From NCBI RefSeq assembly GCF_004117055.1, contig NZ_CP026363.1:3216001-3280000 (forward strand): 64,000 nt of DNA, given 5' to 3'. A program made the translations under genes and the position numbers. The stretch is from Brevibacillus agri. Lineage in GTDB: Bacteria; Bacillota; Bacilli; Brevibacillales; Brevibacillaceae. Numbering within the stretch: the stretch's first letter is position 1; every line of letters begins with the position of its first letter. A model generated the notes under the pieces. That model was given only the letters and a program-made list of their open reading frames with translations, made no database searches and was not told the DNA's origin. Shown one piece after another: positions 6,389 through 52,930 of this stretch.

Positions 6389-6421
6389 TTGTCCAGACCT
6401 CCCTTCAATCGCGCTTTCCTT

Positions 6422-6958
6422 CTAGGCAAGCTTTACGAGAAACAGCGGCTGACCATGCTCAACCAACTGACCATTTTCCACCAGTACTTGAACGATTTCC
6501 CCTTTTACCTCTGCCTCAATCTCGTTAAACAGCTTCATGGCCTCGACAATACAAACGATGCTTGACGGCTCTACGCGGTCGCCCGCGGAAACGTACGGCG
6601 GAGCATCCTCGGCCGGAGCGGCATAGAAGGTCCCGACCATCGGGGAGGTAATTTTGTGCAAACTTTCCGTCTGTTCAGCGACTGCGGCCGGAGCGACTTT
6701 TTCTGCTACAGCTACAGCCACAGGTTGCGGCTTCGGTTGCTGGACAGGCGCTTTTTCAGGTTGTGGCAAGGCAACGACCGCAGCCGCTTTTTTGCCAGGC
6801 TCCGTCTTTTGCACGTAGGCCGCTTTGTCGGCTGTCGCAGTCTCATTCGTGCGTCGTTTGATGCGCAGGCGGGATTCCTCGTCTTTTACTTCGAGCGATT
6901 CTATGTCCGTCTGCTCCAACAGCTTTACAAGTTCTCTCAATTCATAGATCGTCAGCAC
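6422..6958 (-). CDS. Biotin carboxyl carrier protein (AccB-like)
   Basis: This 178-residue protein carries biotin between a biotin carboxylase and the carboxyltransferase. The biotinyl domain is at the C-terminus with the motif EAMKLFN, the lysine at residue 142, where the classical form is EAMKM. A flexible segment rich in Pro, Ala, Lys and Gln (about 55-95) precedes it, as in AccB proteins. The start is GTG at 6958 behind GGAGG. It is the first gene of the mutase operon, so it probably serves the propionyl-CoA carboxylase encoded at the operon's far end rather than fatty-acid synthesis. A housekeeping accB elsewhere would support that reading. Confidence 0.9.
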
Positions 6959-6994
6959 ACTTATTCCTCCCGTGTTCCGAGTCTGTCTTTTACG

Positions 6995-7010
6995 AACCGA
7001 CTGGTTGGTC
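6995..7010. promoter_or_regulatory. TetR-type operator copy 1
   Basis: The core ACCGACTGGTTGGT (6996-7009) fits the palindrome ACCNACNNGTNGGT that recurs twice more in this intergenic region. It lies about 35-48 bases downstream of the predicted start site. Binding by the adjacent TetR protein is inferred. Confidence 0.6.
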
Positions 7011-7026
7011 TGTGGAGTGTCTACTG

Positions 7027-7042
7027 GACCGACCAGTTGGTC
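7027..7042. promoter_or_regulatory. TetR-type operator copy 2
   Basis: GACCGACCAGTTGGTC is the best of the three copies, with core 7028-7041. It begins right after the predicted transcription start, where a bound repressor would block initiation. Its centre is 32 bases, about three helical turns, from copy 1. Confidence 0.65.
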
Positions 7043-7050
7043 TTTTGCTG

Positions 7051-7079
7051 ATTATAGCAAATATCTGAATAATAGTACA
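7051..7079 (-). promoter_or_regulatory. Candidate promoter of the methylmalonyl-CoA operon
   Basis: On the minus strand a perfect TATAAT lies at 7051-7056, with a weak -35-like TGTACT at 7074-7079, spacing 17. Predicted transcription would begin near 7044, about 86 bases before the biotin carrier start. It is bracketed by TetR-type palindromes, which fits a repressed promoter. The -35 match is poor (3 of 6), so the call rests on the -10 and the context. Confidence 0.5.
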
Positions 7080-7095
7080 GACCAACCAGTCAGTC
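7080..7095. promoter_or_regulatory. TetR-type operator copy 3
   Basis: GACCAACCAGTCAGTC matches the shared palindrome with one outer mismatch (AGT instead of GGT). It abuts the upstream edge of the candidate -35 at 7074-7079, so it could occlude polymerase together with copy 2. Confidence 0.6.
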
Positions 7096-7185
7096 TGCGC
7101 GATACATTTTTAAGCGGACCGTGAAGCGACTATGCCCCTGCTCTCTTGCCAGCAAACGGCGAGTAGCCGCCTGATCCCTCCTGCT

Positions 7186-7833
7186 TTAAAACGACTTGAA
7201 CGGCGTGTCGCCAGACGTCAGGAAAAAACGGTTGAACGCCGGATTTTCCATCGCCTCGGGCTTCAAAACGGAATGCAGCACCATGTCGGCGTAAATGTCC
7301 GCAATCTGCTCGATCGAGTACGTCCCTGTTTTTTGATACCATTTGTAAATCCAGTTGACCATGCCGAAAATCGCCATGGAGACGATCGGCACAGGCAGCT
7401 CCGGCCGAAATTCGCCTGACTGAATCCCGTCCGAGATGACCGTAAACATGATCTTTTTGTAGCGATCCCGCTTCGTTTCAATATCCGTAAAATATTCCGG
7501 GGTCAAAAAGAGGCTTTCCTGATAAAAAATCGTTACCTGTGAGCGGTACAGATCAATCATCATGACAAACGATTTTACGATCGCCTGCAGGCGTTCCGTC
7601 GGCGTATCCCATTTCTCGTAAGCTTCCTCTGCTTTTTCCAGAACGTACGTAATGAATTGGTCGTGAATGATGTAGAGGAGTTCATCCTTGGATTTGAAGT
7701 TGTGATAAAATCCTCCCTTCGAGGTTCCGCTTTCCTTGACGATTTGGTCGACGGTCACCCGGTGGTAGCCATGTGCTTCGAACAAGCGCATGGATGTTTC
7801 GATGATTCGTTCTCTGATTGATTTTTCGCTCAT
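7186..7833 (-). CDS. TetR/AcrR family transcriptional regulator
   Basis: This 215-residue regulator has an N-terminal TetR helix-turn-helix (VDQIVKESGTSKGGFYHNF near residues 27-45) and a helical ligand-binding C-terminal domain. An in-frame GTG at 7842 exists, but ATG 7833 has GGGTGA about 7 bases upstream and gives MSEKSIRER, so it is preferred. It lies directly upstream of the methylmalonyl-CoA operon in the same direction. Three copies of a palindrome in the gap make it the likely repressor of that operon, with an acyl-CoA as plausible inducer by analogy with fatty-acid TetR repressors. The ligand is unknown. A TATAAT at 7851-7856 (minus) may be its promoter. Confidence 0.9.
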   Translation of the reverse strand: MSEKSIRERIIETSMRLFEAHGYHRVTVDQIVKESGTSKGGFYHNFKSKDELLYIIHDQFITYVLEKAEEAYEKWDTPTERLQAIVKSFVMMIDLYRSQVTIFYQESLFLTPEYFTDIETKRDRYKKIMFTVISDGIQSGEFRPELPVPIVSMAIFGMVNWIYKWYQKTGTYSIEQIADIYADMVLHSVLKPEAMENPAFNRFFLTSGDTPFKSF

Positions 7834-7905
7834 TATCTTCACCCGAGATCATTATAGCATAGAAATCCGTTTCTCAATGGCAGATTGCGCGAACAGCAGC
7901 CGGGC

Positions 7906-7945
7906 AGGAAAAACGCCGATTTTTCATCGGGCGAAAAATCGGCGT
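7906..7945 (-). terminator. Intrinsic terminator after the VanY-type gene
   Basis: A 13-bp perfect stem (ACGCCGATTTTTC at 7913-7925 with its complement at 7933-7945) has a 7-base loop. On the minus strand it is followed by TTTTT, so it ends the carboxypeptidase transcript before the TetR gene. Confidence 0.85.
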
Positions 7946-7964
7946 CGCGTTTTGCGGATGATCG

Positions 7965-8885
7965 CTATTCGCTTGCGGAAGCTGGAACCACGCCCAAATA
8001 CTCTTCCAGGGTGATGCCTTGCGCTTTGATTTCCTTGGCGATTTCTGTCCCGACATAACGCAAATGCCACGGTTCGTACATGTAGCCGGTAATCGCCTCT
8101 TTGCCTTCCGGGTAGCGGATGATAAAGCCGTATTCCTGAGCGTGCTCGGCAAGCCACTTCGCTTCTTTTGTGTCCGCAAAGCAGCTCGTCGCGGCGCATT
8201 TGCCGTCGATGCCGGAGACGTCGATCGCAAGTCCCGTCTCATGCTCGCTCGTGCCAGGCACGGCGCTGTACGTGCGCGCCTTTTCTACTCCGTCTTTTTG
8301 CACGTAGTGGTTGAACAGCGCTTTTTGATAGGTGTGGGAGCGGTAGGCGGATACGCCCGCAAGCGAGACTCCGTCTGCTTTCGCCGCAGCAAACAACGCT
8401 TCCAGTGCCGCTGCTGCCTCTTTGCGCAGCTTCCGCTTCTCGCTCTTTTTCGGGAGCAGGTAAGGCACATTCGGGAAAACGAGGTCGGTTGGCGTGTAGT
8501 TTTCCGGGAGCTTGCGCTGCTTGTTGACGAGAACGGCCATGCTCGCTGGCTCGGCGACTACCTCGATATCCGCAAGCATCGCCTCGGTGTCTGCGGCCGC
8601 TGTGGCAGGCGGCTTTTTCGGCGGTTGCGCTTCGGTTTGCTTTGCCTCATCCGGCTTGGCCTCGGCCGGCGGCGCGGTTTTTGCAGAAGGTGCCGGCTGC
8701 TGATCCGCCGGCTTGCTCTCCTCTGGCTTTACGCTCTTCTGCTTCGTCTGTTCCGGCGCTGTCGCGGGCGGAGCCGTTTTTTCCTGCGGAGCAGGCCCGG
8801 CCAAGCCGCTGCACCCCGACAGCGCAAGAAGCGCTGCCGTTACCAGTATGATCGGATGGTTTGTACAATTGGCAAAACGTTTCAT
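7965..8885 (-). CDS. D-alanyl-D-alanine carboxypeptidase, M15B (VanY) family lipoprotein
   Basis: This is a zinc carboxypeptidase that trims the terminal D-Ala from peptidoglycan stem peptides outside the membrane. A lipoprotein signal ends in LALSGC (Cys25). It is followed by a Pro/Ala/Lys/Glu-rich linker to about residue 100 and a VanY domain with the zinc and catalytic motifs SEHETGLAIDVSG and EPWHLRYVG. At 306 residues it resembles the YodJ/DacY proteins of bacilli. The ATG at 8885 follows AAAGGACG. It is monocistronic with its own terminator. No vancomycin-resistance partner genes are nearby, so a housekeeping cell-wall role is more likely. Confidence 0.92.
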   Translation of the reverse strand: MKRFANCTNHPIILVTAALLALSGCSGLAGPAPQEKTAPPATAPEQTKQKSVKPEESKPADQQPAPSAKTAPPAEAKPDEAKQTEAQPPKKPPATAAADTEAMLADIEVVAEPASMAVLVNKQRKLPENYTPTDLVFPNVPYLLPKKSEKRKLRKEAAAALEALFAAAKADGVSLAGVSAYRSHTYQKALFNHYVQKDGVEKARTYSAVPGTSEHETGLAIDVSGIDGKCAATSCFADTKEAKWLAEHAQEYGFIIRYPEGKEAITGYMYEPWHLRYVGTEIAKEIKAQGITLEEYLGVVPASASE

Positions 8886-11823: not shown

Positions 11824-11909
11824 AGAAAACTTGGCTGCGCCAAGCCATTGCCTTAGCCTTCGTTGCCCTTATACTGGATAAGAATCTTATCCATTCTTAA
11901 ACTGTACAA
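11824..11909. repeat. Dispersed palindromic element, copy A
   Basis: This segment contains AGAAAACTTGGCTGCGCC with the palindrome CTTGGC-TGC-GCCAAG, then CCTTAG, CTTATCCATT and CTGTACA. The same blocks in the same order recur at 25766-25857. Both copies lie immediately beyond the terminator of a minus-strand gene. It codes for nothing obvious. Confidence 0.55.
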
Positions 11910-11951
11910 AAAGACCGCCCTTCCCAAAAAAATCCACAGAGAATGGCGGCC
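11908..11951 (-). terminator. Intrinsic terminator after msrAB
   Basis: On the minus strand GGCCGCCATTCTC pairs with GGGAAGGGCGGTC (one mismatch, two G-T pairs) and is followed by TTTTTG. It lies 36 bases after the msrAB stop. Confidence 0.7.
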
Positions 11952-11986
11952 CGATCCTCGCGATGCGCAAGGAACAGCAACTGGCG

Positions 11987-12958
11987 TTATTTGTTTTCAA
12001 ACAGCTTTTTATACTCGCCGAAGCCTTCCTCTTCCAGTTTGTCTTTTGGAATGAAGCGCAGCGCCGCAGAGTTGATGCAGTAGCGCAAGCCGTTTTCCCC
12101 CGGGCCGTCCTCGAACACGTGCCCGAGATGGGAGTCCGCGTGCTTGCTGCGCACCTCTGTGCGAATCATGTTGTGGGACAGGTCAATGTGCTCGGTAACG
12201 TTCTCGCTTTGCAGCGGCTTCGTGAAAGACGGCCAGCCGCAGCCCGCATCGAATTTGTCCAGCGAGGAAAACAGCGGCTCGTTGGAAACGATGTCGACGT
12301 AGATGCCCTCTTCCTTGTGATTCCAGAACTCGTTGGCAAACGGGCGCTCCGTGCCGTTGTTTTGCGTCACTTCGTACTGAATCGGCGTCAGTTTCTTTTT
12401 CAGTTCTTCCTGCTTCTGTTTGTCGCGCCACGCTTCCTTGATGAACTTCGCCCTGCCGGACGCCGCCTTGTAATACTGATAGCGCAGCGGATTTTTCTTG
12501 TAGTAGTCCTGGTGATACTCCTCCGCCGGGTAAAACGGCTTGGCAGGCAAAATCAAGGTCGCAATCGGCTTCTGAAAACGCCCGCTTTGCGCAAGCTCGT
12601 CGCGTGACTGGATCGCCAGCCGCTCCTGCTCGGGGGTGTGAAAGAAAATCGCCGGAGCGTAAGACTGTCCGCGATCTCCGAATTGGCCGCCTGCATCTGT
12701 CGGGTCGATCTGTCTCCAAAACATTTGCAGCAGCTCCTCGTAGGAGATGAGCGCAGGATCGTACGTAATCTGTACAGCCTCAAAATGCCCGGTCGTCCCG
12801 GAGCATACTTGTTCATAAGTCGGGTTTTCCACATGTCCGCCTGTATAGCCGGACACAACCTTTTCAATTCCTGGCAGCTTGTCAAACGGGCTGACCATGC
12901 ACCAGAAGCAGCCACCTGCAAAGGTTGCGGTTTCAAACCGGGAATGTTCGCTGTTCAT
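11987..12958 (-). CDS. msrAB: Bifunctional peptide methionine sulfoxide reductase MsrA/MsrB
   Basis: This fusion repairs both S- and R-epimers of oxidised methionine in proteins. The MsrA domain comes first, with the catalytic motif GCFWC (Cys17). MsrB occupies the C-terminal half with RYCINSAAL, the catalytic Cys near residue 294. The paired CxxC zinc ligands of many MsrB proteins are absent, as in the zinc-free subgroup. At 323 residues the fusion is complete. ATG 12958 has AGGAGG 8 bases upstream. It appears monocistronic, with a terminator directly downstream. There is no signal peptide, so it acts in the cytoplasm. Confidence 0.95.
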
Positions 12959-41226: not shown

Positions 41227-41991
41227 TTATGACGAGCGGATGCAGCGAATAAAGACGCCCGCCGCTTGCAGCGCCTGGCGAATGCTCTCTGCAAATGCAA
41301 GCGCGTGCGCACCGTCCCCGTGAATGCAGATGGTGTCCGCGCGAATCGGCACGTCGACGCCTTGCAGCGACTGCACCTTGCCTTCTGTCACCATGCGCAC
41401 GACCTGGGCTAACGACTCGGCTTCGTCGGCGATCAGCGCGTCTGGCTGCGTCCGCGGCGTCAGCGTGCCATCCGCCTGGTACGTCCGATCTGCAAACACT
41501 TCGTGCGCGGTGCACAGCCCGATTTTTTCCCCGGCCCGCGTCAATTCGCTGCCAGCCAGTCCGAACAGAACGAGCTCCGGATTGACCCGGTAAACCGCCT
41601 CGGCGATCGCCTCGGCCAGCGCGGGACGCGTCGCTGCCATGTTGTACAAGGCTCCGTGCGGCTTGACGTGCTGCATGACGCCTCCTTCTGCCTGGACGAA
41701 CGCTTGCAGCGCGCCAATCTGGTAGACGACCAGCTCGTAGGCGTCCTGGGCGGAGATGTCCATGTTGCGGCGGCCGAACCCGACCAGATCGGCCAGTCCG
41801 GGATGCGCCCCGATTGCCACCCGGCTCTCGATGGCCAGCTTCACCGTTTTTCGCATCGTGGAAGGGTCGCCCGCATGAAAGCCGCAGGCGATGTTCGCGG
41901 AGCTTACATGCTGCAAAATCGCCTGATCGTTGCCCAGTCGATACGCCCCAAAGCTCTCCCCCATGTCACAGTTCAAATCGACAACCTTCAT
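41227..41991 (-). CDS. pxpA: 5-oxoprolinase subunit A (LamB/YcsF family)
   Basis: PxpA is the catalytic subunit that, with PxpBC and ATP, hydrolyses 5-oxoproline (pyroglutamate) to glutamate. The 254-residue protein starts [17 protein letters not shown] and contains the family motifs [12 protein letters not shown] and [10 protein letters not shown] longer frame from 42006 includes the Shine-Dalgarno itself, so ATG 41991 (GGAGG 8 bases upstream, ATGA overlap with pxpC) is preferred. It is the last gene of the regulon. Confidence 0.95.
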
Positions 41992-43016
41992 TTGCTCTGC
42001 CTCCATCCCGCGTTGATTTGGATTCCCAGCTTGATTTGTTGCAGCTCGGTTTCTTGCTCGTACAGCGCCTGCTGGGCTTTACGCAAAGACACTTCCTGAA
42101 ACTGCACGCTATCGCCCGGCCGCAACTGCGCCAAAATCGGCAAGTCAACGGTCGCCACATGGCCGATTTTCGGGTAGCCGCCAACCGTTTGCCTGTCCGC
42201 GAGCAAAATGATCGGCTGGCCGTTCGGCGGGACCTGGATCGTGCCCGTAGAGACGGCGGCGGAAATCAGTTCCAGCGGCGACTCCAGCGCAAGCTGCGGC
42301 CCTTCCAAACGATAGCCCATTCTGTCGGATTGCGCCGCGAGCTGATACGGCGTCGCGAAAAACTGTCGGCGGCTCTCCTCGGAAAAATAGCCGAACTCCG
42401 CTCCGCGCATGACCCGGACGACCGCGTCTTTTTGGTACGGAAAAACATGCTGCGGGACAAACCAGTCCATCTCGCCGCAACCAGCGTTTCGCGCTTTGCT
42501 TTTCGCTTGCAACTGCTCTGCGAAAAACAGCGCCAGCTCGCTCGGCTTGCCTGGCTCGAGTCGGTCTTTTTCCCGGAGCGTCCTGCCCCATGCCCCGCCA
42601 AAGCCCGCCCGGACATTCGTGCTGCGGCTGCCCATGACGAGCGGAACCTCCCAGCCGCCCGCAATGGCAAGGTAGGCGCGACAGCCTTTTTTGGCATGGG
42701 CAAACTTCAGCGTGCTGCCTTTTTTCACCCAGACAGGACGGTTGCTGTGGATGCGCACGCCGTCTATAGCAGGCTGCATGTCCGCTCCACACACGGCCAA
42801 GAGCGCATCCTGGTGAAACAACAGCACTGGCCCTTTTACCGTCAGCTCCAGAACGGCGGCGTCCGGCTCGTTGCCGACGAGCATGTTTGCCATGCGCATC
42901 GCCAGCGTGTCCATCGCCCCGCCGACGATCACCCCGTGCCGCTGGTACCCGTATCGGCCCAAATCTTGAACGGTCGTGTACAAGCCTGGTGATAGGACTT
43001 CGATGCTCATGGTCAT
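41988..43016 (-). CDS. pxpC: 5-oxoprolinase subunit C (biotin-dependent carboxyltransferase-like, KipA family)
   Basis: This 342-residue subunit forms the ATP-dependent kinase part of 5-oxoprolinase together with PxpB. It contains [18 protein letters not shown] near the start and a later [14 protein letters not shown], both family signatures. ATG 43016 overlaps the pxpB stop as ATGA. An upstream in-frame start at 43034 lies inside pxpB and is less likely. Homologues were once called KipA or allophanate hydrolase subunit 2. Confidence 0.94.
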
Positions 43017-43726
43017 GGCCCGATCTGCCCCCATTTCCCGTATTGTTCCTCCGAGATCGGACAGAAGCGGACTCTGTCGCCTGCGCGCAGCAAGCTCGGC
43101 GGCTGTTCTTCCGGGCGGAACAGGCGCTCCGGTGTCCGGCCAATAATCTGCCAGCCCCCCGGACTCTCAATCGGGTAGACGCCCGTCTGCTCTCCCCCGA
43201 TTCCGACGCTTCCCGGCGCAATCGCGGTTCGCGGCGACTGCCTGCGCGGGGTGGCAATGCGTTTGTCCAGTCCGCCCAAATACGGAAAGCCAGGAGCAAA
43301 GCCGATCATGTGCACGAGATACTCCTGCCCGGAGTGAATGCGGATCAGTTCATCCGGGGTGATGCCGTGATACGCGGCCACATCCAGCAGGTCAGGGCCA
43401 AACGCGCCGCCGTAGCAGACGGGAATCTCCACCAGCCGCGGCTTCGTCTGTTCATCCGCGCGAATGTGCACAAGCTGCCCCGCGAGCAGCGCCTTGAACC
43501 GCTCGTACGGCATGTCCGCTGCGCGCGGATCGTACCACGCCACCGGATCGTAATACACCGTGACAGACGTGTACCCCGGTACGTATTCGACCATTCCCGG
43601 AAGCGGGTGCTCTTCGAAATAGTCGGCGAGCGCCTTTACTTTTTGCTGTGTCGCCTGGTCAATGGCGTCTCCGAGCTTGATGACAATTCCCGAGTCGCCG
43701 AGTGGAAAAAACGCGACTTGCTCCAA
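43013..43726 (-). CDS. pxpB: 5-oxoprolinase subunit B (KipI family)
   Basis: This 237-residue partner of PxpC contains the family motifs IGFAPGFPYLGGL and SVGIGGEQTGVYP. The start is TTG at 43726 behind AGGAGGGG. It is the first gene of the pxpBCA block. A candidate internal promoter and operator lie upstream (43750-43790), after a terminator-like hairpin that follows pcp. KipI-like inhibition of a sporulation kinase is an older alternative role; the complete BCA set favours oxoprolinase. Confidence 0.94.
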   Translation of the reverse strand: MEQVAFFPLGDSGIVIKLGDAIDQATQQKVKALADYFEEHPLPGMVEYVPGYTSVTVYYDPVAWYDPRAADMPYERFKALLAGQLVHIRADEQTKPRLVEIPVCYGGAFGPDLLDVAAYHGITPDELIRIHSGQEYLVHMIGFAPGFPYLGGLDKRIATPRRQSPRTAIAPGSVGIGGEQTGVYPIESPGGWQIIGRTPERLFRPEEQPPSLLRAGDRVRFCPISEEQYGKWGQIGP

Positions 43727-43821: not shown

Positions 43822-44469
43822 TTAGCTGATTTGTCCGCCGCCTTCGACGATGTCTTGCTCCAGGCGCACCGCTGTTTCGATCGCGACTTGCAGTCCTTTG
43901 GCGATCGTCTCCACCGACATGCTCGGCTGGCCGGGGTGCTTCGCTGCCTGCTCGGGCAAGTACGGAATGTGGAGAAAGCCGCCGCGGATCGCCGCGTTTT
44001 GCTGCGCGAGCGTATGCATCAGTCCGTAAAAAAGGTGGTTGCACACAAACGTTCCTGCCGTTTGGGAAACGGAAGCGGGAATGCCGTTCGCCCTCATTTC
44101 CTTGACCATCGCTTTGATCGGCAGCGTGGACCAGTAAGCCGCTGGCCCGCCTTCCACAATCGGGGTGTCGATCGGCTGGTTTCCTTCGTTGTCGGGAATC
44201 CGCGCATCGTTAACATTGATCGCCACGCGCTCGACGGTAATGTCCGGCCGGCCGCCAGCCTGTCCAATGCAGAACACGAGATCAGGTTCCGTCTCGCGAA
44301 TCGCTTGCTGCAAAAGCTCGATGGACTTGCCGAACACCGTTGGCACTTGTCTTGTTTCGATGCGATACCGTTCCGACCGGACGTCAGCCAGTCGCTTGAC
44401 CGATTCCCACGCCGGGTTGATCGGCTCGCCGCCAAATGGGTCAAAGCCTGTTACCAAAATGGTTTTCAT
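43822..44469 (-). CDS. pcp: Pyroglutamyl-peptidase I
   Basis: This 215-residue cysteine peptidase (C15) removes N-terminal pyroglutamate from peptides and so produces 5-oxoproline. The catalytic Glu lies in the early [11 protein letters not shown]...NPAWE region and TVERVAIN; the nucleophile is in [12 protein letters not shown]; the His is near [14 protein letters not shown] 44469 lies behind AGGGGAGAG. It sits directly upstream of pxpBCA, which consumes its product. Confidence 0.95.
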
Positions 44470-44506: not shown

Positions 44507-45277
44507 TCAGCTTCGCCTCGCTCGCCTCCAGCCCAGCGCCGTGGAAATGCGCTCTGCGGCAGCCGTCAAATGGGCGATCAGCGTTGGCAGCCGCTCCTCG
44601 GTGAACCGCTCCTGCGGTCCAGCGATGCTGATGCCTGCATGCAGACGACCCATGTGGTCAAAAATGGGCGCTGCGACCGCTACCGTATCGTTTTCCAACT
44701 CCGAATAGCTGATCGTGTACCCTTTTTCCCGCGCATCCGCCACTGCTTTGCGCAACTCGTCCCTGTCCGTGATCGTCCCGCGTCCAATCGGCGCAAGCTC
44801 CACTTCGCGCAAATACTGCTCTCTTTCCTTTTCTTCCAGAAAAGACAAAATAATTCGCGAACAGGCCCCGGCGTACAGAGGCGATCTGCGCCCGATCTTC
44901 GTATAGAGCCGTACCGGGTGTGGCGTATCGAGCTTTTCGATATAGATCGCTTCTTTTCCGTCCCGGACGATGAGATTGACCGCCTCTTCCACTTCGTCCC
45001 GCAGGGCGCTCATCACGGGCAAAGCGAGCTGGCGAATATCCAGCCGCTCGGACACCAACTGGCCGAACTGCAAAAACAACAGCCCGAGCGAAAATTTGCC
45101 GTCCTCGCCCCTCTGCAAAAAGCCCATTCCTTCGAGCGAGCCGATCATGCGATGGATCGACGTTTTCGGCATGTTCGTCAGCTCGACCATCTCGTTCAAG
45201 CTCAATCTGTCGTGGTCGATGAACAGATTGAGCAGCTCCATCGACTTCACGACCGTTTTGTTCTGGTTTTGTATCAT
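44507..45277 (-). CDS. IclR family transcriptional regulator
   Basis: This 256-residue regulator has an N-terminal winged helix (LSLNEMVELTNMPKTSIHRMIGSLEGMGF) and a C-terminal IclR effector domain. An in-frame ATG at 45316 lacks a Shine-Dalgarno, while ATG 45277 has GGAG at good spacing. It is embedded in the 5-oxoproline operon between the transporter pair and pcp, so it is very likely the local regulator, with 5-oxoproline or a related compound as candidate ligand. Palindromes at 50622-50638 and 43752-43768 are candidate sites. Confidence 0.88.
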   Translation of the reverse strand: MIQNQNKTVVKSMELLNLFIDHDRLSLNEMVELTNMPKTSIHRMIGSLEGMGFLQRGEDGKFSLGLLFLQFGQLVSERLDIRQLALPVMSALRDEVEEAVNLIVRDGKEAIYIEKLDTPHPVRLYTKIGRRSPLYAGACSRIILSFLEEKEREQYLREVELAPIGRGTITDRDELRKAVADAREKGYTISYSELENDTVAVAAPIFDHMGRLHAGISIAGPQERFTEERLPTLIAHLTAAAERISTALGWRRARRS

Positions 45278-45365
45278 GGACTTCTCCATCCCCGCGATCT
45301 GGTTGTTTTTGTCCATATTTTATCATTATTGTTGCCAGGAGGAAAAAACAACAGATGGTTTTTGC

Positions 45366-46319
45366 CTACAGCGAGACCAGATACAAAAGGATGATGTTGA
45401 ACGCAAGCAAAACGAGCGCTGTCGGGAACTGCACGCGAATGACGTGGTTTTTGTCTTTCAAGTCGAGCAGCGCGGCGGGCACGATGTTGAAGTTCGCTGC
45501 CATCGGCGTCATGAGCGTGCCGCAGTAGCCCGCGAACATCCCGATTGCCGCCAGATGGTTCGCATCGACGCCGAACTGGCCGATCAATAGCGGAATGGCG
45601 ATGCCCGCCGTCATGACCGGGAAAGCCGCGAACGCGTTGCCCATAATCATCGTGAACAGGGCCATGCCTACGCAGTAGGCGAAGACGACCCAGAACAAGG
45701 AATGCGTCGGAATAACGTGCGCAACCAGATCAGAGACGACCGTCCCGACACCTGCGCTGGTAAAAATCGTTCCGAGCGTAGCCAGCATCTGCGGCAGCAC
45801 AGCCGCCCAACTGATCGCTTCCAGCAAGCGCCGCGATTCTTTGACAGGTGTCAACGGGTTGCTTTTGGTCAGCGCCATCCCGACGAGCAGCGAGATCAAC
45901 GTCGCAAGCCCCAGCGAGACGAGCGTAATGTTTTTCTGGTCGAGCACGAACAGCTCGCCGATTTTCACGTCCTTGAAGCCGAGACTGCCGACAATCGTCA
46001 ACAGCGGAATCAACAGCGCTGGCACGAACAGCCAGTTGCCCAGCCGCTGGCGGTTCTGCCTGCGCTCCTCAGCGGAGGCTTCGCCGTAGCTTCCCACCTT
46101 CAAGCCGCCCAAGCCGACGATCAGCACCATCACAATGACTAAAAGTCCCATGGCAAAAGGCGGGATGATACTGCCGAGCAGCAAGGAAATCCCGTAGAGC
46201 GCATAAAAAAGGCCAGAGGTGAAGCGGCGCGGATTTTTCTTGTCCACAAACGTAAACAGGCTGCCGCCAAGCGCAATCAAACCGAGAAATACATAGATCG
46301 CTTCCATCGAAATCCACAT
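45366..46319 (-). CDS. DUF979 family membrane protein, probable 5-oxoproline transporter subunit
   Basis: This 317-residue protein has nine to ten membrane helices. It always pairs with a DUF969 protein, and such pairs are linked to pyroglutamate genes. ATG 46319 has AAGGGGG upstream and begins right after the DUF969 stop (46323-46325). The association with pcp and pxpABC makes import of 5-oxoproline or pyroglutamyl peptides the best inference. Confidence 0.85.
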   Translation of the reverse strand: MWISMEAIYVFLGLIALGGSLFTFVDKKNPRRFTSGLFYALYGISLLLGSIIPPFAMGLLVIVMVLIVGLGGLKVGSYGEASAEERRQNRQRLGNWLFVPALLIPLLTIVGSLGFKDVKIGELFVLDQKNITLVSLGLATLISLLVGMALTKSNPLTPVKESRRLLEAISWAAVLPQMLATLGTIFTSAGVGTVVSDLVAHVIPTHSLFWVVFAYCVGMALFTMIMGNAFAAFPVMTAGIAIPLLIGQFGVDANHLAAIGMFAGYCGTLMTPMAANFNIVPAALLDLKDKNHVIRVQFPTALVLLAFNIILLYLVSL

Positions 46320-46322
46320 CGG

Positions 46323-47027
46323 TTATTCCCCCTTGCCTGTCGATGTGTGCTTGCTGTTGCGCTGTCCCAGCCGTCGGTCCAGCTTGCGGTCGAGCAAAAT
46401 CAGGCGGATGCTGTGCACGACGAACGCGGCAATCGCGGTCGGAATGGCCCACATCGCCATTTGCAGCGGATCGGACGGAATGTTGTTCTGGTCGAAAAAG
46501 CCTTTCATCAATAAAATTGCGCCAATCGCGATAAACACGTCCTCGCCAAAAAACACGCCGATGTTGTCGGCCGCTGCAGAGTGCGCGCGAATATTTTGCC
46601 GCACGTCGTCGGGGAGGTCTTTGCCGTACTTCGCCTCCGCCGCTCCTTCTGCCATCGGCGCGACGAGCGGCCGCACCATTTGCGCATGGCCGCCGATCGA
46701 GGTCAGGCCAAACACGGCAGCGACCTCGCGGATAAAAAAGTAGACGTTAATGATGCGGCCTGCCGTGGCGGCCTTGATTTTGGAGACGAGCGCTTCTGCC
46801 TGTTCGCGCAGTCCAAAGCGCTCCAATAGCCCGATGACGGGCAAGGTGGCGATAAAAATCGCCATGTAGCGGTTCGTTGTAAACGCCTTGCCAAATTGCT
46901 CGATGATCTCATACAGCGGCTGCTTGGCGAGCAGTCCGGTGGCAAGCCCCGCGACCGTCACCACCAGTAGCGGGTTGAGCCGCACGATGAAGCCGATAAT
47001 CACGATTGCAACACCAATCAAAACCAT
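46323..47027 (-). CDS. DUF969 family membrane protein, probable 5-oxoproline transporter subunit
   Basis: This 234-residue membrane protein has about five to six helices and the conserved segment VFGLTSIGGHAQMVRPLVAP (near residues 114-133), typical of DUF969. It is coupled to the DUF979 gene. ATG 47027 follows GAGAGGAG, 31 bases after the M14 gene. The two proteins together resemble a split ion-transporter fold. Confidence 0.85.
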   Translation of the reverse strand: MVLIGVAIVIIGFIVRLNPLLVVTVAGLATGLLAKQPLYEIIEQFGKAFTTNRYMAIFIATLPVIGLLERFGLREQAEALVSKIKAATAGRIINVYFFIREVAAVFGLTSIGGHAQMVRPLVAPMAEGAAEAKYGKDLPDDVRQNIRAHSAAADNIGVFFGEDVFIAIGAILLMKGFFDQNNIPSDPLQMAMWAIPTAIAAFVVHSIRLILLDRKLDRRLGQRNSKHTSTGKGE

Positions 47028-47058: not shown

Positions 47059-50000
47059 CTAAAGCGGGCGCTTGCGGATGAGGCCGATGCGAATGGTGCC
47101 ATCTGCCTCGTGCTCCCGGATTTCCTCTATTGTTACTTTCCGATTTTTCATCCAGTCGGCAATCGCCTGGTGGACCACATGGTGGGCGTGTCGGCACGCT
47201 TGCAATTCTTTGCCATACACCGTCTCGTCGTTGACCTCTGTCATCAGGTCGGCTGTCACCCACTCCGGGAAGCGCTCGATCAGATCATGAGAGTTGCGGT
47301 TAATCGGGCTGTCCCGAGTGTAGGCAATGCTTCCGTTCGACAGCTCAATCGGAAAATGCTGCGGGTCAAAGTCATGGCCCCATCTGCGGTATGTGGCGAG
47401 CCAATCGACGTTGTCCTGCGCGACAGCCGCGTCCTGGTGCAGCGAAGCGGTGAGGGCTGCGCGCAGCGAAGTGTAGGCTTCGCGCTGCTCGGGGGTCGCC
47501 TCTGTCAGCGCGCGCCAGATCGTGTACATCCGCGCGCTCGGAATCCAGTACGAAACCGGGAAGCGCGGCGGGCTGTTGTAGCCGCTGAACGGCTGAATCC
47601 ATTCGTGCGACGGAATCCCGTGGTCGTCGAGCACGATGTCAGGCGCCCAGCGCTCCCATACTTTCGGATAAATCCGGCTCTCGCCAAACGGCACGCCGCT
47701 TTGAAACCGATACTTGGCAAATTCCAGTCCGCATGCGTTGTAGCGGGCGGCGTGGTGCTTCCAGCACGGGTTGTCCTGCGCAAGCTGCGCGTGCAGCGCG
47801 GCTCCGTCGACGTTTTCCAGCGGGATGATGACGAGGTTGACCGCCTCCAGGACAGAAGGATCGTCTGCAAGCTGGGCGATCATTTGCAAAGCGGCGTTCG
47901 TGCTCGATACTTCGTTGGCGTGGTGCCTTGCGTTGATGAAAAACGTCGGCTTGTACAGCGCGTGCTTGGCCGTGCTCGTCGCAAAGCTGTGCTGCGCTTT
48001 TCCGGCGAACAGCTCGACGGCCCAAATCCAGCGGCCGTTCAGCGAAAAATCGAGCGGCACGACCTGTCCGGGCACTTGCTCGCGGTGTTGTGCGAGCCAC
48101 TGCTCCACGTCCTCGCCTGTGAAAACGTCCTCCCAAAGCGACTTTCCCTTGGAAGCTTCTGTAGTAGCCTGCTGCGCGATTGGCTGCTGGTCGGCAGGCT
48201 GCGCTTGTGATTGCGCCATGGAAAAGCCCAGCCATGCCTGGCACTGCTCTCTCAGCGTAGCGTCCGCAATCCCTTCGAGCGTAACCGACCAGTCGGTTTC
48301 TTTGCGGCAAAGCCCGGTCGCTACCGCATCCCGAAACGGCATCCCCGCAAACGGGCGGATGACCGTCGCCGCGCCGCTCGCGTCGACCGCCGTGATCGCA
48401 TGCTCCGTCGGAAAGGCGTACAAAGCGATCCGCGCCCACGGCTTGCCGCCCTGTTCGACGTGCATGAACGGCACGATTCCGCCAGGTGCGTCCCACTCCG
48501 GGTCCCCGACCTTTTTCCCGTGGTTGTGCATGGCGTGCAACGTGTAAAAGTAAATATCTTCGTGCAACGCTTCCAGGACGGAGCTGTTCTCCTCCAGATG
48601 CGGCAGCTTTTTCTCCACGGCATCCATCCCGACGTGGCATTCCAGCCGGGAAAACTTCGGCACGCCAGGATTGCCCCCTACCTGCCGGAAAATCATCGGC
48701 AGCACCTGCTCCTGGTACCATTGCCAAAAGCGATACGGATTGGTTGCAAACGGTTTCCTCGCAAGCTCGTTTTGCGTCTGCGCTTCCTTTACCCGGACGC
48801 CTGCAAACGGAACGAGCACACGACCGCGCTGCGGCTGATCCGGCATGTACGGCCTGCTCTCTGCCCAGCCTTCCCAGCTCCAGTCGGCAAGCACCTCTTT
48901 CGACTCGGCAAAAGCACACACGGAAAACATCGGAGCGGCAGAATCTTCTGCAAGCTGCAGGCGAATGCGTTCGAGCGGAAGCGACAGGCTGTCGGCCAAA
49001 ATCGCATCAAACGGATACAGCTCCTGCAAAAAGCGGTGAACCAGGTCGAAGTGCTTGTCCGCTGGCCGAAACGCCCTCGCCCGCAGTTCGACGCTGTGCA
49101 CGTCTTTGAGCTGGACGATTTGCGGCAACACCTCCTGCATGGCCCAGTTCAGCCCCGACTTGTTTGCGTCGCGAAACGCGAACCAGACTTCGACGCCGTA
49201 GCGCTCCCTGCATTGCCCGGCCAGCTTTTTCGCCCACGCCGCAAACGTCTGCTCGCTCGCCGTGGTCGTCACTTCGATCTCCAAAGCGGCTCCCCCGGAA
49301 TGTTCGGCATGCTTTTGCACAACGGCCAGCAAATAGTCTTCCATCTCTGCTAATTCGCCCGGATCGCTCCACTCCGCCGTCCAGACAGGCAGCTCTTCCG
49401 TAACCGCAAGCGGCACGGGGCCACCCGCTCGTCCACCGCCGCCCACATACTGCTCCCATACTTCTGTGGGGCGAGCCAAATGCTCCGGTACTTCCAGGCG
49501 CGCGATCTCTGTGCGCTCCCGCAGCGAAAACGTTTGCAAGCCAAGAGACGCGCGCAACGACAAATCTTGGCTGTCGCTCTTTAAGGCGAACAACCGCTGG
49601 CGCCAGCCGAAATGCTGTCCTGCGGAAAGCGGCGCAAATCCGTCTGCGAGCAGCTCGCGCACAAAACCGACCAGATGCAAAGCATCGCTCTCGATCCGCA
49701 ACTGCTTGCCGTCCTCGAAAAGCTCCATACGGCTCTCTCCATGAGCAGCCGGAGCCGTTTTTGTTTCGAAGACAATCTCAAACCGCCCCGCCTCGTTTTC
49801 TTCCCCTGCACACCGCGTCACAGGCGTGCGTACATAGCCCGCAGACAAGGCGAGGCGCGCGCCAAGCTCCACGGCCGCCACCGTCTTCTCCAGCGAGCCA
49901 TCCGGCATGGACAACAACACGTCCAGCGTCGGCAGCAGCTCCCCGTCGTTTTGCTCGTACAGCCCTTCTGTCGTAAACAGTTCGTGCAGCGAAAAAGTCC

Positions 50001-50595
50001 GGGAGCGGTTGTTGCCTGGATTGGTCGCCGTCTTTTCGGCGGTCAACGGAGCCGCCGGTTTTGGCGCAATCAAAATCGCGCGCTGATGGCCGAAGCCCGC
50101 CTGCTCTATTGCATCTTGCCTGTACTCCCCGGATACGAGCGCGCGTGCCGAAAGCAACGTCATTTGCGGCGATGTGCCTGTAATGACGAGAATCGACTCG
50201 TCTTCGCCCTCGCTCACATACAGAATGCCTGCCTCTTTTTCGCCGTTGTCCCGCAGCTTGTGCAGAGCGAGTAGCGCCGCTTTGCGTTCGCCCAAAACCG
50301 AAGCAAGCCATGCCTGCTCGTACCCTACGACGATCCGCAAAGTACGCGGCTTGTCCCCCTGTACCGGGAGAGCCTGTTCATCAAGCTGGTCGAAAATGAA
50401 CAAGTGCTCAAAAATCGGCAGCGGCAAGTCGGTCAGGTGCAAACCGATCCGACTGGCCAGCTCTGCCATCGCGGCAGATTCCCAGCTCGTGCGCTCGGAC
50501 GGAACCGTGATTTTCGAGACGATTCCGTCAGGGGCGCTGCTCCCTTTGCTGGCCCGAAAAAAGCCGTTCGTACTCCACAGCTCGTCTATCCTCAC
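47059..50595 (-). CDS. Giant M14 family zinc carboxypeptidase
   Basis: This 1,178-residue protein has an M14 peptidase domain in the last third: zinc motif HHANE (His892, Glu895), an NVDGAALH segment near residue 935 and a DDHGIPSHEW segment. The N-terminal two thirds hold two related modules, DELWSTNGFFRA... (about 4-200) and HELFTTEGLYEQ... (about 215-340), each with an SPS/VPS-like strand followed by ELASRIGL or ELGARLAL. There is no signal peptide, so it looks cytoplasmic. The start is GTG 50595 behind GGGTGAGG. As first gene of the 5-oxoproline operon it may cleave pyroglutamyl or gamma-glutamyl peptides. Substrate and N-terminal fold are unknown; ordinary M14 enzymes have 300-450 residues. 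Confidence 0.85.
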   Translation of the reverse strand: MRIDELWSTNGFFRASKGSSAPDGIVSKITVPSERTSWESAAMAELASRIGLHLTDLPLPIFEHLFIFDQLDEQALPVQGDKPRTLRIVVGYEQAWLASVLGERKAALLALHKLRDNGEKEAGILYVSEGEDESILVITGTSPQMTLLSARALVSGEYRQDAIEQAGFGHQRAILIAPKPAAPLTAEKTATNPGNNRSRTFSLHELFTTEGLYEQNDGELLPTLDVLLSMPDGSLEKTVAAVELGARLALSAGYVRTPVTRCAGEENEAGRFEIVFETKTAPAAHGESRMELFEDGKQLRIESDALHLVGFVRELLADGFAPLSAGQHFGWRQRLFALKSDSQDLSLRASLGLQTFSLRERTEIARLEVPEHLARPTEVWEQYVGGGGRAGGPVPLAVTEELPVWTAEWSDPGELAEMEDYLLAVVQKHAEHSGGAALEIEVTTTASEQTFAAWAKKLAGQCRERYGVEVWFAFRDANKSGLNWAMQEVLPQIVQLKDVHSVELRARAFRPADKHFDLVHRFLQELYPFDAILADSLSLPLERIRLQLAEDSAAPMFSVCAFAESKEVLADWSWEGWAESRPYMPDQPQRGRVLVPFAGVRVKEAQTQNELARKPFATNPYRFWQWYQEQVLPMIFRQVGGNPGVPKFSRLECHVGMDAVEKKLPHLEENSSVLEALHEDIYFYTLHAMHNHGKKVGDPEWDAPGGIVPFMHVEQGGKPWARIALYAFPTEHAITAVDASGAATVIRPFAGMPFRDAVATGLCRKETDWSVTLEGIADATLREQCQAWLGFSMAQSQAQPADQQPIAQQATTEASKGKSLWEDVFTGEDVEQWLAQHREQVPGQVVPLDFSLNGRWIWAVELFAGKAQHSFATSTAKHALYKPTFFINARHHANEVSSTNAALQMIAQLADDPSVLEAVNLVIIPLENVDGAALHAQLAQDNPCWKHHAARYNACGLEFAKYRFQSGVPFGESRIYPKVWERWAPDIVLDDHGIPSHEWIQPFSGYNSPPRFPVSYWIPSARMYTIWRALTEATPEQREAYTSLRAALTASLHQDAAVAQDNVDWLATYRRWGHDFDPQHFPIELSNGSIAYTRDSPINRNSHDLIERFPEWVTADLMTEVNDETVYGKELQACRHAHHVVHQAIADWMKNRKVTIEEIREHEADGTIRIGLIRKRPL

Positions 50596-50621: not shown

Positions 50622-50638
50622 GTTCCGAATTTCGGAAC
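50622..50638. promoter_or_regulatory. Palindromic operator candidate for the 5-oxoproline operon
   Basis: GTTCCGAA-T-TTCGGAAC is a perfect 17-bp palindrome, located about +19 to +35 from the predicted start site. A related sequence lies upstream of pxpB. The form fits IclR-family operators such as GTTCCG-n-CGGAAC. Confidence 0.65.
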
Positions 50639-50745: not shown

Positions 50746-50771
50746 GAAAAAAGCAAGCATCTGCTGCTTGC
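50746..50771 (-). terminator. Intrinsic terminator after the YitT-family gene
   Basis: GCAAGCA (50753-50759) pairs with TGCTTGC (50765-50771) and on the minus strand is followed by TTTTTTC. Confidence 0.75.
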
Positions 50772-50815
50772 CTGTCCTGTTTGCGCCTGACTGGCCTAGC
50801 CGGCCACGCTCGCCG

Positions 50816-51700
50816 TTAATGAATATTTTTTTTCTTGAACCGCCCTCCCGATACGTCGTGAATATGGCCGATCGCGAGAAACGCGGATGCGTCGATCTCC
50901 TCCACGATTGATTTGAGCTTGGCTTCCTCCAGCCGGGTGATGACACAGAAAATGACTTTTTTGTCGTCCCCGGAGTAGCCGCCCTCTCCGCGCAAATACG
51001 TAATCCCCCGTCCCAGCCTGGCAGACAGCGCGTCCCCGATTTCGTTCGGATAGTCGCTAATAATCCAGACCGAGCGCGATTGTTCGAGGCCGACCATCGT
51101 CAAGTCGATCATTTTGTACGCGATATAGTAGGCAATCAGCGAGTACATCGCCCGGTCCCAGCCAAAGATGAAGCCCGCGCTGCCGAGGATGAAAATATTG
51201 AAAATCATTACGACTTCCCCGACGGAAAACGGACTTTTGCGCGTCAGCAAAATCGCGACGATCTCGGTGCCGTCCAACGACCCGCCTGCGCGAATCACCA
51301 GTCCGACGCCAATCCCGATAATGATGCCGCCAAAGACGGCAGACAGCAGCAAATCGTCGGTCAAGCTGGGAACGTGGTGCAAAAAATTCGTCCCGAGCGA
51401 CATGACGGCTACCCCAAACAGCGTGGAGATCGCGAACGTTTTCCCGATCTGCTTGTAGCCGACCAACAAAAACGGCAAGTTGAACAGAAAGAGGAAAATC
51501 CCCAGCTTGATTCCGGTCAGGTGTGACATCATGATCGACAGACCTGTGACCCCGCCGTCGATGATCTTGTTCGGCACGAGAAAAATTTCCAGGCCGACGG
51601 CAACCATCAGCGCTCCGACGATAATCGCAAGCGCCCTTGTGACGATTCTTCGCTTTTTGGCCCGCTTGTGGGTAATCGGACCCGTTTTTGCGGCTTCCAT
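50816..51700 (-). CDS. YitT family membrane protein (DUF2179)
   Basis: This 294-residue protein has five to six helices (residues 15-195) followed by a cytosolic DUF2179 domain with RGITYLRGEGGYSG and a terminal VSGGRFKKK tail. B. subtilis has several paralogues of unknown transport role. In-frame starts at 51736 and 51709 exist, but ATG 51700 has AAGGA 8 bases upstream. A hairpin with a T run lies 57 bases ahead of this start. Confidence 0.88.
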   Translation of the reverse strand: MEAAKTGPITHKRAKKRRIVTRALAIIVGALMVAVGLEIFLVPNKIIDGGVTGLSIMMSHLTGIKLGIFLFLFNLPFLLVGYKQIGKTFAISTLFGVAVMSLGTNFLHHVPSLTDDLLLSAVFGGIIIGIGVGLVIRAGGSLDGTEIVAILLTRKSPFSVGEVVMIFNIFILGSAGFIFGWDRAMYSLIAYYIAYKMIDLTMVGLEQSRSVWIISDYPNEIGDALSARLGRGITYLRGEGGYSGDDKKVIFCVITRLEEAKLKSIVEEIDASAFLAIGHIHDVSGGRFKKKNIH

Positions 51701-51756
51701 AAAAATCATCCTTACCCGTTTTTTTCTTTTCTGCATTCAGCTTTCCCCGCTTGCTC

Positions 51757-51886: not shown

Positions 51887-52930
51887 ATGGCTCCCTATCC
51901 CTCGCTCGGAAAAAGCCCGATCAATCAACTGTTTCTCGCGTACACAGGCTACAGCATCGGCACGGACGGCACTCCGCACTACCAGTTTTGGGAGTGCACC
52001 GACTTTTTGCCCTTGCTCTTCCATACCGATCCGGTGACCGGATTGGCGGACGGCGGCATGTTCACCGATTTTCTGTTTTTGGCTCTCGGGATTTTGAATC
52101 AGTCGGGGGAAGGCCGCTTTTTGGCGCGCATCGACAAGGCTCCCGCTGGTTGGAACGAATGGTTGCGCTACATGGATGAGCTGTTCCTTGGCGACCGGAA
52201 TCTCGACGCGCTCTGCCAGGCGGTGCGTTGCTCGCCGCTGTCGCGCACGAATGTGTGGGTGGCCCTGCCTTACCCGAATCCGCAGCAGTTTGGCGACGAC
52301 GCCTACCGGATCGAGGCGGTCATCGAGTGGATGTGCCTGTTTCTTACGAGGTGGGCCAAAAAGCCGTGGAACGATTGCCTCTGCCTAAAAGGCTTCTACT
52401 GGCTACAGGAAAGCCTGTACTTCCAAGGGCCCAAGCACGACGACCGCCAAGTCATCCGGGCGGTCAACGACGCGATCCACGGCTGCACGCACGCCGGACG
52501 GATGCTTCGGAGCATCTGGATTCCGTATCAACAGGCGGCTGGCTGGAACGAGTGGGCACAGCTTGGCTTCGACCTCGCTTTTTTGCAACCGAACTACTAC
52601 TTCAACCCGAAAAAAAGCGTGGATGCTTCCGCCGCCGCAAGCGAGGCAGCCGGAATGGGCGTCGAAATCGAGTTTGACCTCGGAGTCACCTACGATCGGG
52701 AAAAACGCGAGCGGCTGCTGGCGTACTTGCGGGCCGGAGCTTCCGGCGGGACAGACGGGCATGGCAATGCTTTCGGGCCTTTTCAATACGACGCGCCGCT
52801 TGCCTGGTACACGGGCGGCTGGTTTTTCGGCAAAAACGGGCGCAAGCAGGCGCTCGTCAGCTTGTACCAGTCAGGCGATCCGCTTTACGACGAGCTTTTC
52901 TCCTTTTTAAACGGAATCGCGCCGCCGTAA
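51887..52930 (+). CDS. DUF4855 domain-containing protein
   Basis: This 347-residue protein belongs to the DUF4855 family, which looks like a glycoside-hydrolase-type TIM barrel. Recognisable segments are YTGYSIGTDG near the start, then SIWIPYQQAAGWNEWAQLGFDLAFLQPNYYF. No signal peptide is evident. ATG 51887 has AGAGGTG upstream. It is a single gene. The substrate is unknown. Confidence 0.82.
   Translation: MAPYPSLGKSPINQLFLAYTGYSIGTDGTPHYQFWECTDFLPLLFHTDPVTGLADGGMFTDFLFLALGILNQSGEGRFLARIDKAPAGWNEWLRYMDELFLGDRNLDALCQAVRCSPLSRTNVWVALPYPNPQQFGDDAYRIEAVIEWMCLFLTRWAKKPWNDCLCLKGFYWLQESLYFQGPKHDDRQVIRAVNDAIHGCTHAGRMLRSIWIPYQQAAGWNEWAQLGFDLAFLQPNYYFNPKKSVDASAAASEAAGMGVEIEFDLGVTYDREKRERLLAYLRAGASGGTDGHGNAFGPFQYDAPLAWYTGGWFFGKNGRKQALVSLYQSGDPLYDELFSFLNGIAPP

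Follow-up and report, generated by a model that had tools for sequence, protein, structure and literature searches.

A long M14-domain protein heads a 5-oxoproline operon in Brevibacillus agri and may act in pyroglutamate salvage

The window analysed here is a 64,000-nucleotide stretch of Brevibacillus agri (contig NZ_CP026363.1, positions 3,216,001 to 3,280,000), whose genome is a single contig of 5.37 Mb, and the gene in question is a 1178-codon open frame with a GTG start at positions 47059-50595 of the minus strand. A first-pass annotation made from the sequence had placed an M14 peptidase here, at the head of a 5-oxoproline operon, and both parts of that description hold. The frame is confirmed on the minus strand, which had not been stated (the plus-strand reading of the same interval is interrupted by internal stops), and the GTG start is supported because close relatives start at or near the same point. 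The gene is the first of eight co-directional genes in the order M14, DUF969, DUF979, IclR, Pcp, PxpB, PxpC and PxpA, so that pcp and the 5-oxoprolinase genes pxpABC (the latter reportedly the subject of a 2017 paper by Niehaus) are present in the same gene run as the M14 gene. Neighbouring genes in the run overlap or are separated by gaps of 3-95 nt, and the eight would appear from this spacing and from their conserved order to form one transcription unit. We consider, with moderate confidence, that the first of them encodes an M14-fold intracellular zinc hydrolase acting in the salvage of pyroglutamate (5-oxoproline), on pyroglutamyl peptides and upstream of or parallel to the pyroglutamyl-peptidase Pcp.

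The catalytic domain was recognized by the Pfam family PF00246 (M14), which matched residues 831-952 with an E value of 2.7e-12, over the curated cut-off; no other Pfam family matched the window protein at E values up to 0.1. A full-length AlphaFold model built with 29 homologues had a mean predicted local distance difference test score (pLDDT) of 88.7 and a predicted template modelling score (pTM) of 0.90, and residues 815-1154 of this model superimposed on carboxypeptidases A/B with Z scores of 22-24 and a root mean square deviation (rmsd) of about 3 over about 250 residues. All 62 aligned M14 domains (and all 46 of a smaller set) retain five residues, namely H892, E895, H992, E1120 and R951; by their order and spacing we take these to correspond to the zinc ligands, Glu270 and Arg127 of carboxypeptidase A. 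Loss of the zinc ligands in most homologues, an outcome that the first-pass annotation had named as contrary to its proposal, was looked for and seen in none of the 62. In the model E1120 ends strand 1115-1120, ahead of helix 1128-1150, and its equivalence to Glu270 is positional. The profile alignment to five ordinary M14 proteins was sound only as far as the NPDG motif and misaligned the second half of the domain, and therefore the mapping of residues to carboxypeptidase A rests on spacing and on the conventional numbering. In addition, R1108 is kept in 41 of 46 aligned M14 domains and might serve to bind an acidic group. No membrane-spanning segment was found in the window protein, its top 19-residue hydropathy being 1.22 compared with 2.36 for the DUF969 protein used as a control.

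A protein of this fold could instead be an acylase-like amidohydrolase, similar to AstE/AspA or to N-acetylornithine deacetylase, whose reaction would be the removal of an N-acyl group or the opening of a lactam-like bond and which would be no peptidase. Among the 29 members scanned, the AstE/AspA profile matched 12 weakly (best E 4.9e-4) and the N-acetylornithine deacetylase model matched eight (best E 0.0031). A search of a viral structure library at E values of 0.001 or less returned five matches, of which four were peptidases or zinc carboxypeptidases and one was of the AstE/AspA type, and a gene of the succinylglutamate desuccinylase/aspartoacylase family lies near the S. meliloti relative. 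However, PF00246 recognizes every one of the 29 members (best E 1.8e-14) and the window protein itself matches neither acylase model, and we regard an acylase as quite improbable.

In front of the M14 domain, residues 1-830 gave no reliable match to Pfam, NCBIfam or PDB sequences, and outside that domain no Pfam family recurs in the 29 members, except for the weak AstE/AspA match in 12 of them (position not shown). A profile match of module 1 to the O-GlcNAcase NagJ in the PDB, at an E value of 0.71, is a lead only. The first-pass annotation had described two related N-terminal modules that it could not assign; profile-profile comparison with hhalign relates modules 1 and 2 with an E value of 1.6e-13 and a probability of 98, and structure prediction gives the region a fold of the BcsB type. 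Residues 1-812 modelled alone (pLDDT 88.6, pTM 0.80) matched BcsB with Z scores of 17.2-18.5 over 278-290 aligned residues (rmsd 4.8-5.0), spanning residues 1 to 773-776 of the model, with a best Foldseek E value of 1.1e-4. After BcsB, at Z scores of 8.6 and lower, came the N-terminal domains of glycoside hydrolase (GH) families GH138, GH115, GH67 and GH20 and an S-layer anchoring domain. Taken singly, module 1 gave a Z score of 8.1 to the GH115 structure 4c90_B over residues 2-177, and module 2 also gave 8.1, to 9fsa over residues 201-320.

BcsB is described, in passages of PMC11379886, as two repeats, each with a carbohydrate-binding-like region and a flavodoxin-like domain. Using profiles built from ten Bacillota BcsB proteins, together with eight control profiles, we found that the module 1 profile matched both flavodoxin-like BcsB repeats (hhalign E values of 3.8e-5 and 2.3e-4), all eight controls scoring 0.048 or worse. 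Modules 2 and 3 gave no direct match to the BcsB profiles (E values of 0.16 and 0.69 respectively), and since the direct match was found for module 1 alone, module 2 is tied to BcsB only through module 1. From these models and profiles, modules 1 and 2 are predicted to be flavodoxin-like modules of the BcsB type. Module 3 is unrelated to module 1 by profile comparison (E 0.49), and the best structure matches of its region are dihydrodipicolinate reductases, with Z scores of about 7, a level that chance can give; its residues K479, W484, R521, Y583 and E679 are invariant in 29 aligned proteins. The coordinates of all of these features are collected in Table 1, in which PxpC is assigned through TIGR00724; its score against NF045499 was 289.8 bits, under that model's cut-off of 500.

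Table 1. Features of the M14 gene, its operon and its upstream region in the window
Feature	Position	Strand	Evidence or remark
M14-domain protein, 1178 aa	47059..50595	-	first gene of the operon, GTG start
Module 1, residues 1-166, predicted flavodoxin-like alpha/beta, BcsB type	50098..50595	-	structure and hhalign
Module 2, residues 198-390, predicted second copy of module 1 with an extra helical stretch	49426..50004	-	hhalign, structure
Module 3, residues 401-798, universal central module	48202..49395	-	no Pfam family
M14 catalytic domain, residues 815-1178	47062..48153	-	H892, E895, H992 zinc ligands; E1120 catalytic Glu; R951
DUF969 membrane protein, half of presumed 5-oxoproline transporter	46323..47027	-	PF06149, E 1.2e-93
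DUF979 membrane protein, other half of presumed transporter	45366..46319	-	PF06166, E 4.9e-121
IclR-family regulator	44507..45316	-	PF01614, E 7.2e-54; PF09339
Pcp, pyroglutamyl-peptidase I (C15)	43822..44469	-	TIGR00504 and NF009676, above cut-off
PxpB, 5-oxoprolinase subunit	43013..43726	-	TIGR00370, above cut-off
PxpC, 5-oxoprolinase subunit	41988..43034	-	TIGR00724, above cut-off
PxpA, 5-oxoprolinase subunit	41227..42006	-	NF003814, above cut-off
Palindrome GTTCCGAATTTCGGAAC	50622..50638	.	26 bp upstream of the M14 start codon; perfect; probable IclR operator
Terminator-like hairpin between the YitT-family and M14 genes	50751..50773	-	weak: 15 such in the region compared with 13.3 expected

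The composition of the protein was then compared across its relatives (loci carry L numbers and genomes G numbers). Hidden Markov models (HMMs) of the separate parts found module 3 and the M14 domain in 21 of 21 proteins of a first set and 16 of 16 of a second. Modules 1 and 2 were undetected in all 20 Deinococcus and proteobacterial relatives tested by HMM (L084-L087 and 16 others) as well as in L102, a Bacillota protein from a short contig, and some Bacillota proteins had one N-terminal module alone clearly visible. Because the 20 non-Bacillota relatives have just module 3 and the M14 domain, the catalytic unit would consist of these two parts, and modules 1 and 2 are, as far as the sequences indicate, an addition seen in Bacillota. 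Their absence outside that phylum also weighs against the proposal of the first-pass annotation that they choose the substrate: eight of the 20 relatives without them still adjoin pxp genes or a gene for a fused hydantoinase/oxoprolinase, and modules 1 and 2 probably make no such choice. A match in Cocleimonas (L035), in a frame that presumably resembles aldehyde ferredoxin oxidoreductase, was rejected as a chance hit.

Linkage to pyroglutamate genes was scored with HMMs built on the genes of the window and on a few that adjoin the M14 gene in relatives (first 45 loci), in stretches of mostly 8-10 kb on each side (L096 was shortened on one side). The first 45 loci and later plasmid loci, minus the window itself, L102 (on a 3.9-kb contig) and L175 (a broken gene), made up 60 informative loci. 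Those from Pseudomonadota and Deinococcota were drawn from plasmid records only; 41 plasmid records match the core protein, of which 21 were used, approximately one per species and by non-random choice. For Enterococcus, two of six matching plasmid records were examined, and the match in G116 was left out of the loci. Thirty-one of the 60 loci lie by pcp or pxp genes, five by a fused hydantoinase A/B gene, two by DUF969/DUF979 only and 22 by none of these. The corresponding figures are 28, 0, 2 and 10 for Bacillota (n=40), 2, 5, 0 and 7 for Pseudomonadota (n=14) and 1, 0, 0 and 5 for Deinococcota (n=6). The linked loci are scattered over the main branches of the tree; as a scale for chance, a random 20-kb stretch of the window genome contains its single Pcp gene approximately 0.4% of the time. 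A family found mostly without pyroglutamate genes, which had been named at the outset as evidence to the contrary, was looked for and not seen, given that 38 of 60 homologues are linked on the wide count, which includes the fused hydantoinase and DUF969/DUF979-only loci, and 31 of 60 by pcp/pxp alone.

The fused hydantoinase A/B genes were detected by their similarity to the Phyllobacterium gene and run off the end of the stretch examined. Scans of two of the five placed both in the Pfam hydantoinase/oxoprolinase families, with no NCBIfam model reaching its cut-off for either; the Phyllobacterium protein matches PDB chains named N-methylhydantoinase and 5-oxoprolinase. If these fused hydantoinases are oxoprolinases, the M14 gene adjoins 5-oxoprolinases of two unrelated kinds. 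Furthermore, in three Bacillota genomes (loci L104-L106), in Deinococcus peraridilitoris and in Ketogulonicigenium, the last two checked by HMM, the M14 gene lies with an ATP-binding cassette (ABC) importer and PxpABC in a stretch that lacks pcp. These cases suggest that 5-oxoproline may be released by the M14 enzyme itself, provided that the genomes have no pcp at another site.

These arrangements bear on a rather unlikely alternative, in which the protein is a general carboxypeptidase that trims the C-termini of imported oligopeptides, Pcp alone frees pyroglutamate and the genetic link reflects shared uptake. Such a role would fit the dipeptide-type ABC genes that are frequent neighbours even with no pyroglutamate genes near (L095, L098 and several Deinococcus and Rhizobiaceae loci), and also the genes of the proline iminopeptidase family that five of the six Deinococcus plasmid loci (L084, L085, L165, L178 and L179) carry within approximately 10 kb of the M14 gene. 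On the other hand, a general trimmer would not be expected beside 5-oxoprolinase genes that have no pcp in the stretch (L104-L106, L085, L164 and L171, in three phyla), though pcp may lie elsewhere, and the stretch that would clamp a C-terminus is variable.

Individual loci showed further arrangements. On the plasmids of Enterococcus raffinosus and E. gilvus a glutamate 5-kinase-like gene (L082, 7964-8740; L083, 7204-7986) directly precedes the M14 gene, which is followed by DUF969, DUF979 and pcp, with no pxp genes in these loci. In genome G085 two adjoining frames (L046, 8310-8926) make up a split pcp gene next to the M14 gene, and another pcp match lies elsewhere in the genome. The M14 relative on a Rhizobium etli plasmid (L175, 8947-10551) is broken into two frames, with PxpABC nearby. 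In the unlinked locus L091 the M14 gene is flanked by genes for a DsbD-like membrane protein and a helix-turn-helix protein (6310-8094 and 11851-12471).

Two other substrates were weighed against the annotated neighbours. The first-pass annotation had also named gamma-glutamyl peptides, and a hydrolase of these or of poly-gamma-glutamate, whose products join the pathway by cyclization, gained little: a glutamate 5-kinase gene lies directly upstream in the two Enterococcus relatives, and two from Deinococcus have genes of the glutamine synthetase family nearby. However, no gene for a gamma-glutamyl polymer is named in the annotated neighbour tables (unannotated loci were not scanned for them), and glutamate released in this manner would need no oxoprolinase; we regard this substrate as very unlikely. 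We consider it extremely improbable that the protein is a peptidoglycan-stem peptidase of cell-wall recycling, linked to pyroglutamate through gamma-D-glutamate ends. Some known M14 enzymes do cut stem peptides, the Paracoccus relative has a gene for an anhydro-N-acetylmuramic acid kinase nearby and a penicillin-binding protein gene falls within the D. deserti stretch, but the annotated tables name no recycling gene other than the Paracoccus kinase.

Upstream of the M14 gene, the palindrome listed in Table 1 is probably an operator of the IclR regulator at the head of the operon. Its 15-mer core occurs once in the 5.37-Mb genome, and the 17-mer, allowing up to two mismatches, has one match in the window compared with 0.07 expected. 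The site is shared: TTCCG-N5-CGGAA lies 14-35 bp before the M14 start codon used in L033, L034, L036, L037 and L038, and in operons without the M14 gene it stands before DUF969 in L112 (10959) and before IclR in L110 (9350). It is absent in L039, in L088-L090, in the remaining M14-less operons and in the ABC-linked clade. In five of 12 ABC-linked loci a shorter form, TTCCG-N4-CGGAA, lies in the interval separating IclR from the ABC genes (L040, 3363; L041, 2891; L042, 17056; L044, 2227; L045, 17250). Further upstream, 220 nt from the M14 gene, lies a YitT-family gene (50816-51736, minus strand), which together with a DUF4855 gene (51887-52930, plus strand) recurs near the operon in several Brevibacillus loci, both with and without the M14 gene.

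In the pyroglutamate-salvage role that we favour, pyroglutamyl peptides would enter the cell, in many relatives via a dipeptide-type ABC transporter, the place of which in the window operon is occupied by the DUF969/DUF979 pair. The M14 enzyme would cut these peptides, either freeing 5-oxoproline directly from short ones or trimming them for Pcp, and PxpABC would then open 5-oxoproline to glutamate. With module 3 and the M14 domain as the presumed catalytic unit, the BcsB-type modules would be likelier to serve in assembly or positioning than in catalysis. Pcp cuts pyroglutamyl-proline poorly, and a more specific version, which we put forward only tentatively, would be a second, zinc-dependent and Pcp-independent release of pyroglutamate, by an M14 enzyme in the cytoplasm that handles pyroglutamyl amino acids, perhaps including pyroglutamyl-proline, like blocked dipeptides and frees 5-oxoproline directly, and in which the BcsB-type modules of Bacillota assemble a higher-order complex. 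BcsB itself polymerizes via sheet completion between its flavodoxin-like domains, according to passages of PMC11470070.

Several observations weigh against this role or narrow it. In carboxypeptidase A, Asn144-Arg145 forms the clamp for the C-terminal carboxylate, and the corresponding stretch here (residues 956-964) varies in sequence, A960 and K961 differing among homologues, so that classical C-terminal recognition is not assured and the name 'carboxypeptidase' is unproven. Of the original suggestion of an unrecognized carboxypeptidase for pyroglutamyl peptides, the intact M14 hydrolase (62 of 62) and the link to pyroglutamate genes in three phyla stood, and the carboxypeptidase activity did not gain the same support. 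The 22 loci with no such gene in the stretch include 12 of the 20 non-Bacillota loci, and a whole Bacillota branch (L091-L097) is unlinked. Speaking for the role, Pcp was present, among 39 genomes of family f1, in all 17 that carry the M14 gene and in nine of 22 without it (Fisher P value of 7.8e-5), and among all 99 genomes in 20 of 20 and 27 of 79 respectively (P value of 2.3e-8), P values that are inflated by the relatedness of the species. For this count 26 genomes matched, six of them weakly through ordinary M14 proteins (best E 3.1e-7 to 8.7e-4; G009, G024, G052, G057, G075 and G089), and these six were not taken as carriers; PxpB, found in 84 of the 99 genomes, was too common to discriminate.

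Operons without the M14 gene exist in the same family, and the gene is not required for the use of 5-oxoproline. We read seven of the nine such operons in M14-less family-f1 genomes with pcp. One (L112) has exactly the gene order of the window, with the M14 gene missing between YitT and DUF969, two (L113 and L114) have DUF969/DUF979, and four (L108-L111) have none of the scored transporters either. Read in this way, the M14 gene seems to be accessory and to accompany uptake; all 28 pcp/pxp-linked Bacillota loci contain DUF969/DUF979 or dipeptide-type ABC genes. The entry of its substrate is nevertheless the weak point, as the transporter pair of the window is proposed to move 5-oxoproline itself rather than peptides. 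DUF969/DUF979 is proposed as a 5-oxoproline transporter in passages of PMC12795558, with a structural argument in part of PMC11467057, and the same part of PMC12795558 describes, as a preliminary test, a Campylobacter jejuni mutant of DUF969, DUF979 and DUF2891 that lost growth on 5-oxoproline. Corynebacterium, according to a passage of PMC13274462, pairs another transporter with PxpABC.

PxpABC and DUF969/DUF979 together form a known or proposed route for free 5-oxoproline in bacteria, and if the M14 enzyme does supply 5-oxoproline from peptides, the preceding step would be filled in at least three phyla. It would also give a testable function to a protein that is publicly annotated in its relatives as 'M14 family metallopeptidase', 'M14 family zinc carboxypeptidase' or 'peptidase M14'. 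In open-access full text, no paper was found to connect M14 enzymes with 5-oxoprolinase, with pyroglutamyl compounds or pyroglutamate, or with BcsB. We describe a known fold in a new architecture and, probably, in a new place in a known pathway, and the presence of BcsB-related modules on a protein without any sign of export raises the question of their role outside polysaccharide secretion.

Compared with the M14 carboxypeptidases A/B, the window protein has in common the fold, the HxxE motif and third His as zinc ligands and, by position, the catalytic Glu. It differs in its low identity (9-16% in the listed structures), in a second half of the domain that the Pfam profile misses and in the 800 residues of other modules in front, with no secretion signal seen. 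With BcsB (PF03170), the periplasmic subunit of cellulose synthase, it has flavodoxin-like modules in common, but it shows no membrane anchor, is fused to a peptidase and lies outside any cellulose operon; PF03170 was not among the families listed for the 29 members at E values up to 10, a range in which the HMMER filters drop most matches above approximately 0.1. The N-terminal alpha/beta domains of GH67, GH115 and GH20 resemble its modules in fold, with Z scores of 6.4-8.2 that are near the level of a common arrangement, and no glycoside hydrolase domain was found in the M14 protein. The M14-like acylases AstE/AspA, which weakly match some members by profile, do not match the window protein. 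Finally, Pcp is encoded in the same operon and belongs to the same pathway, but it is a peptidase of another family (C15 as opposed to M14) and the product of a separate gene.

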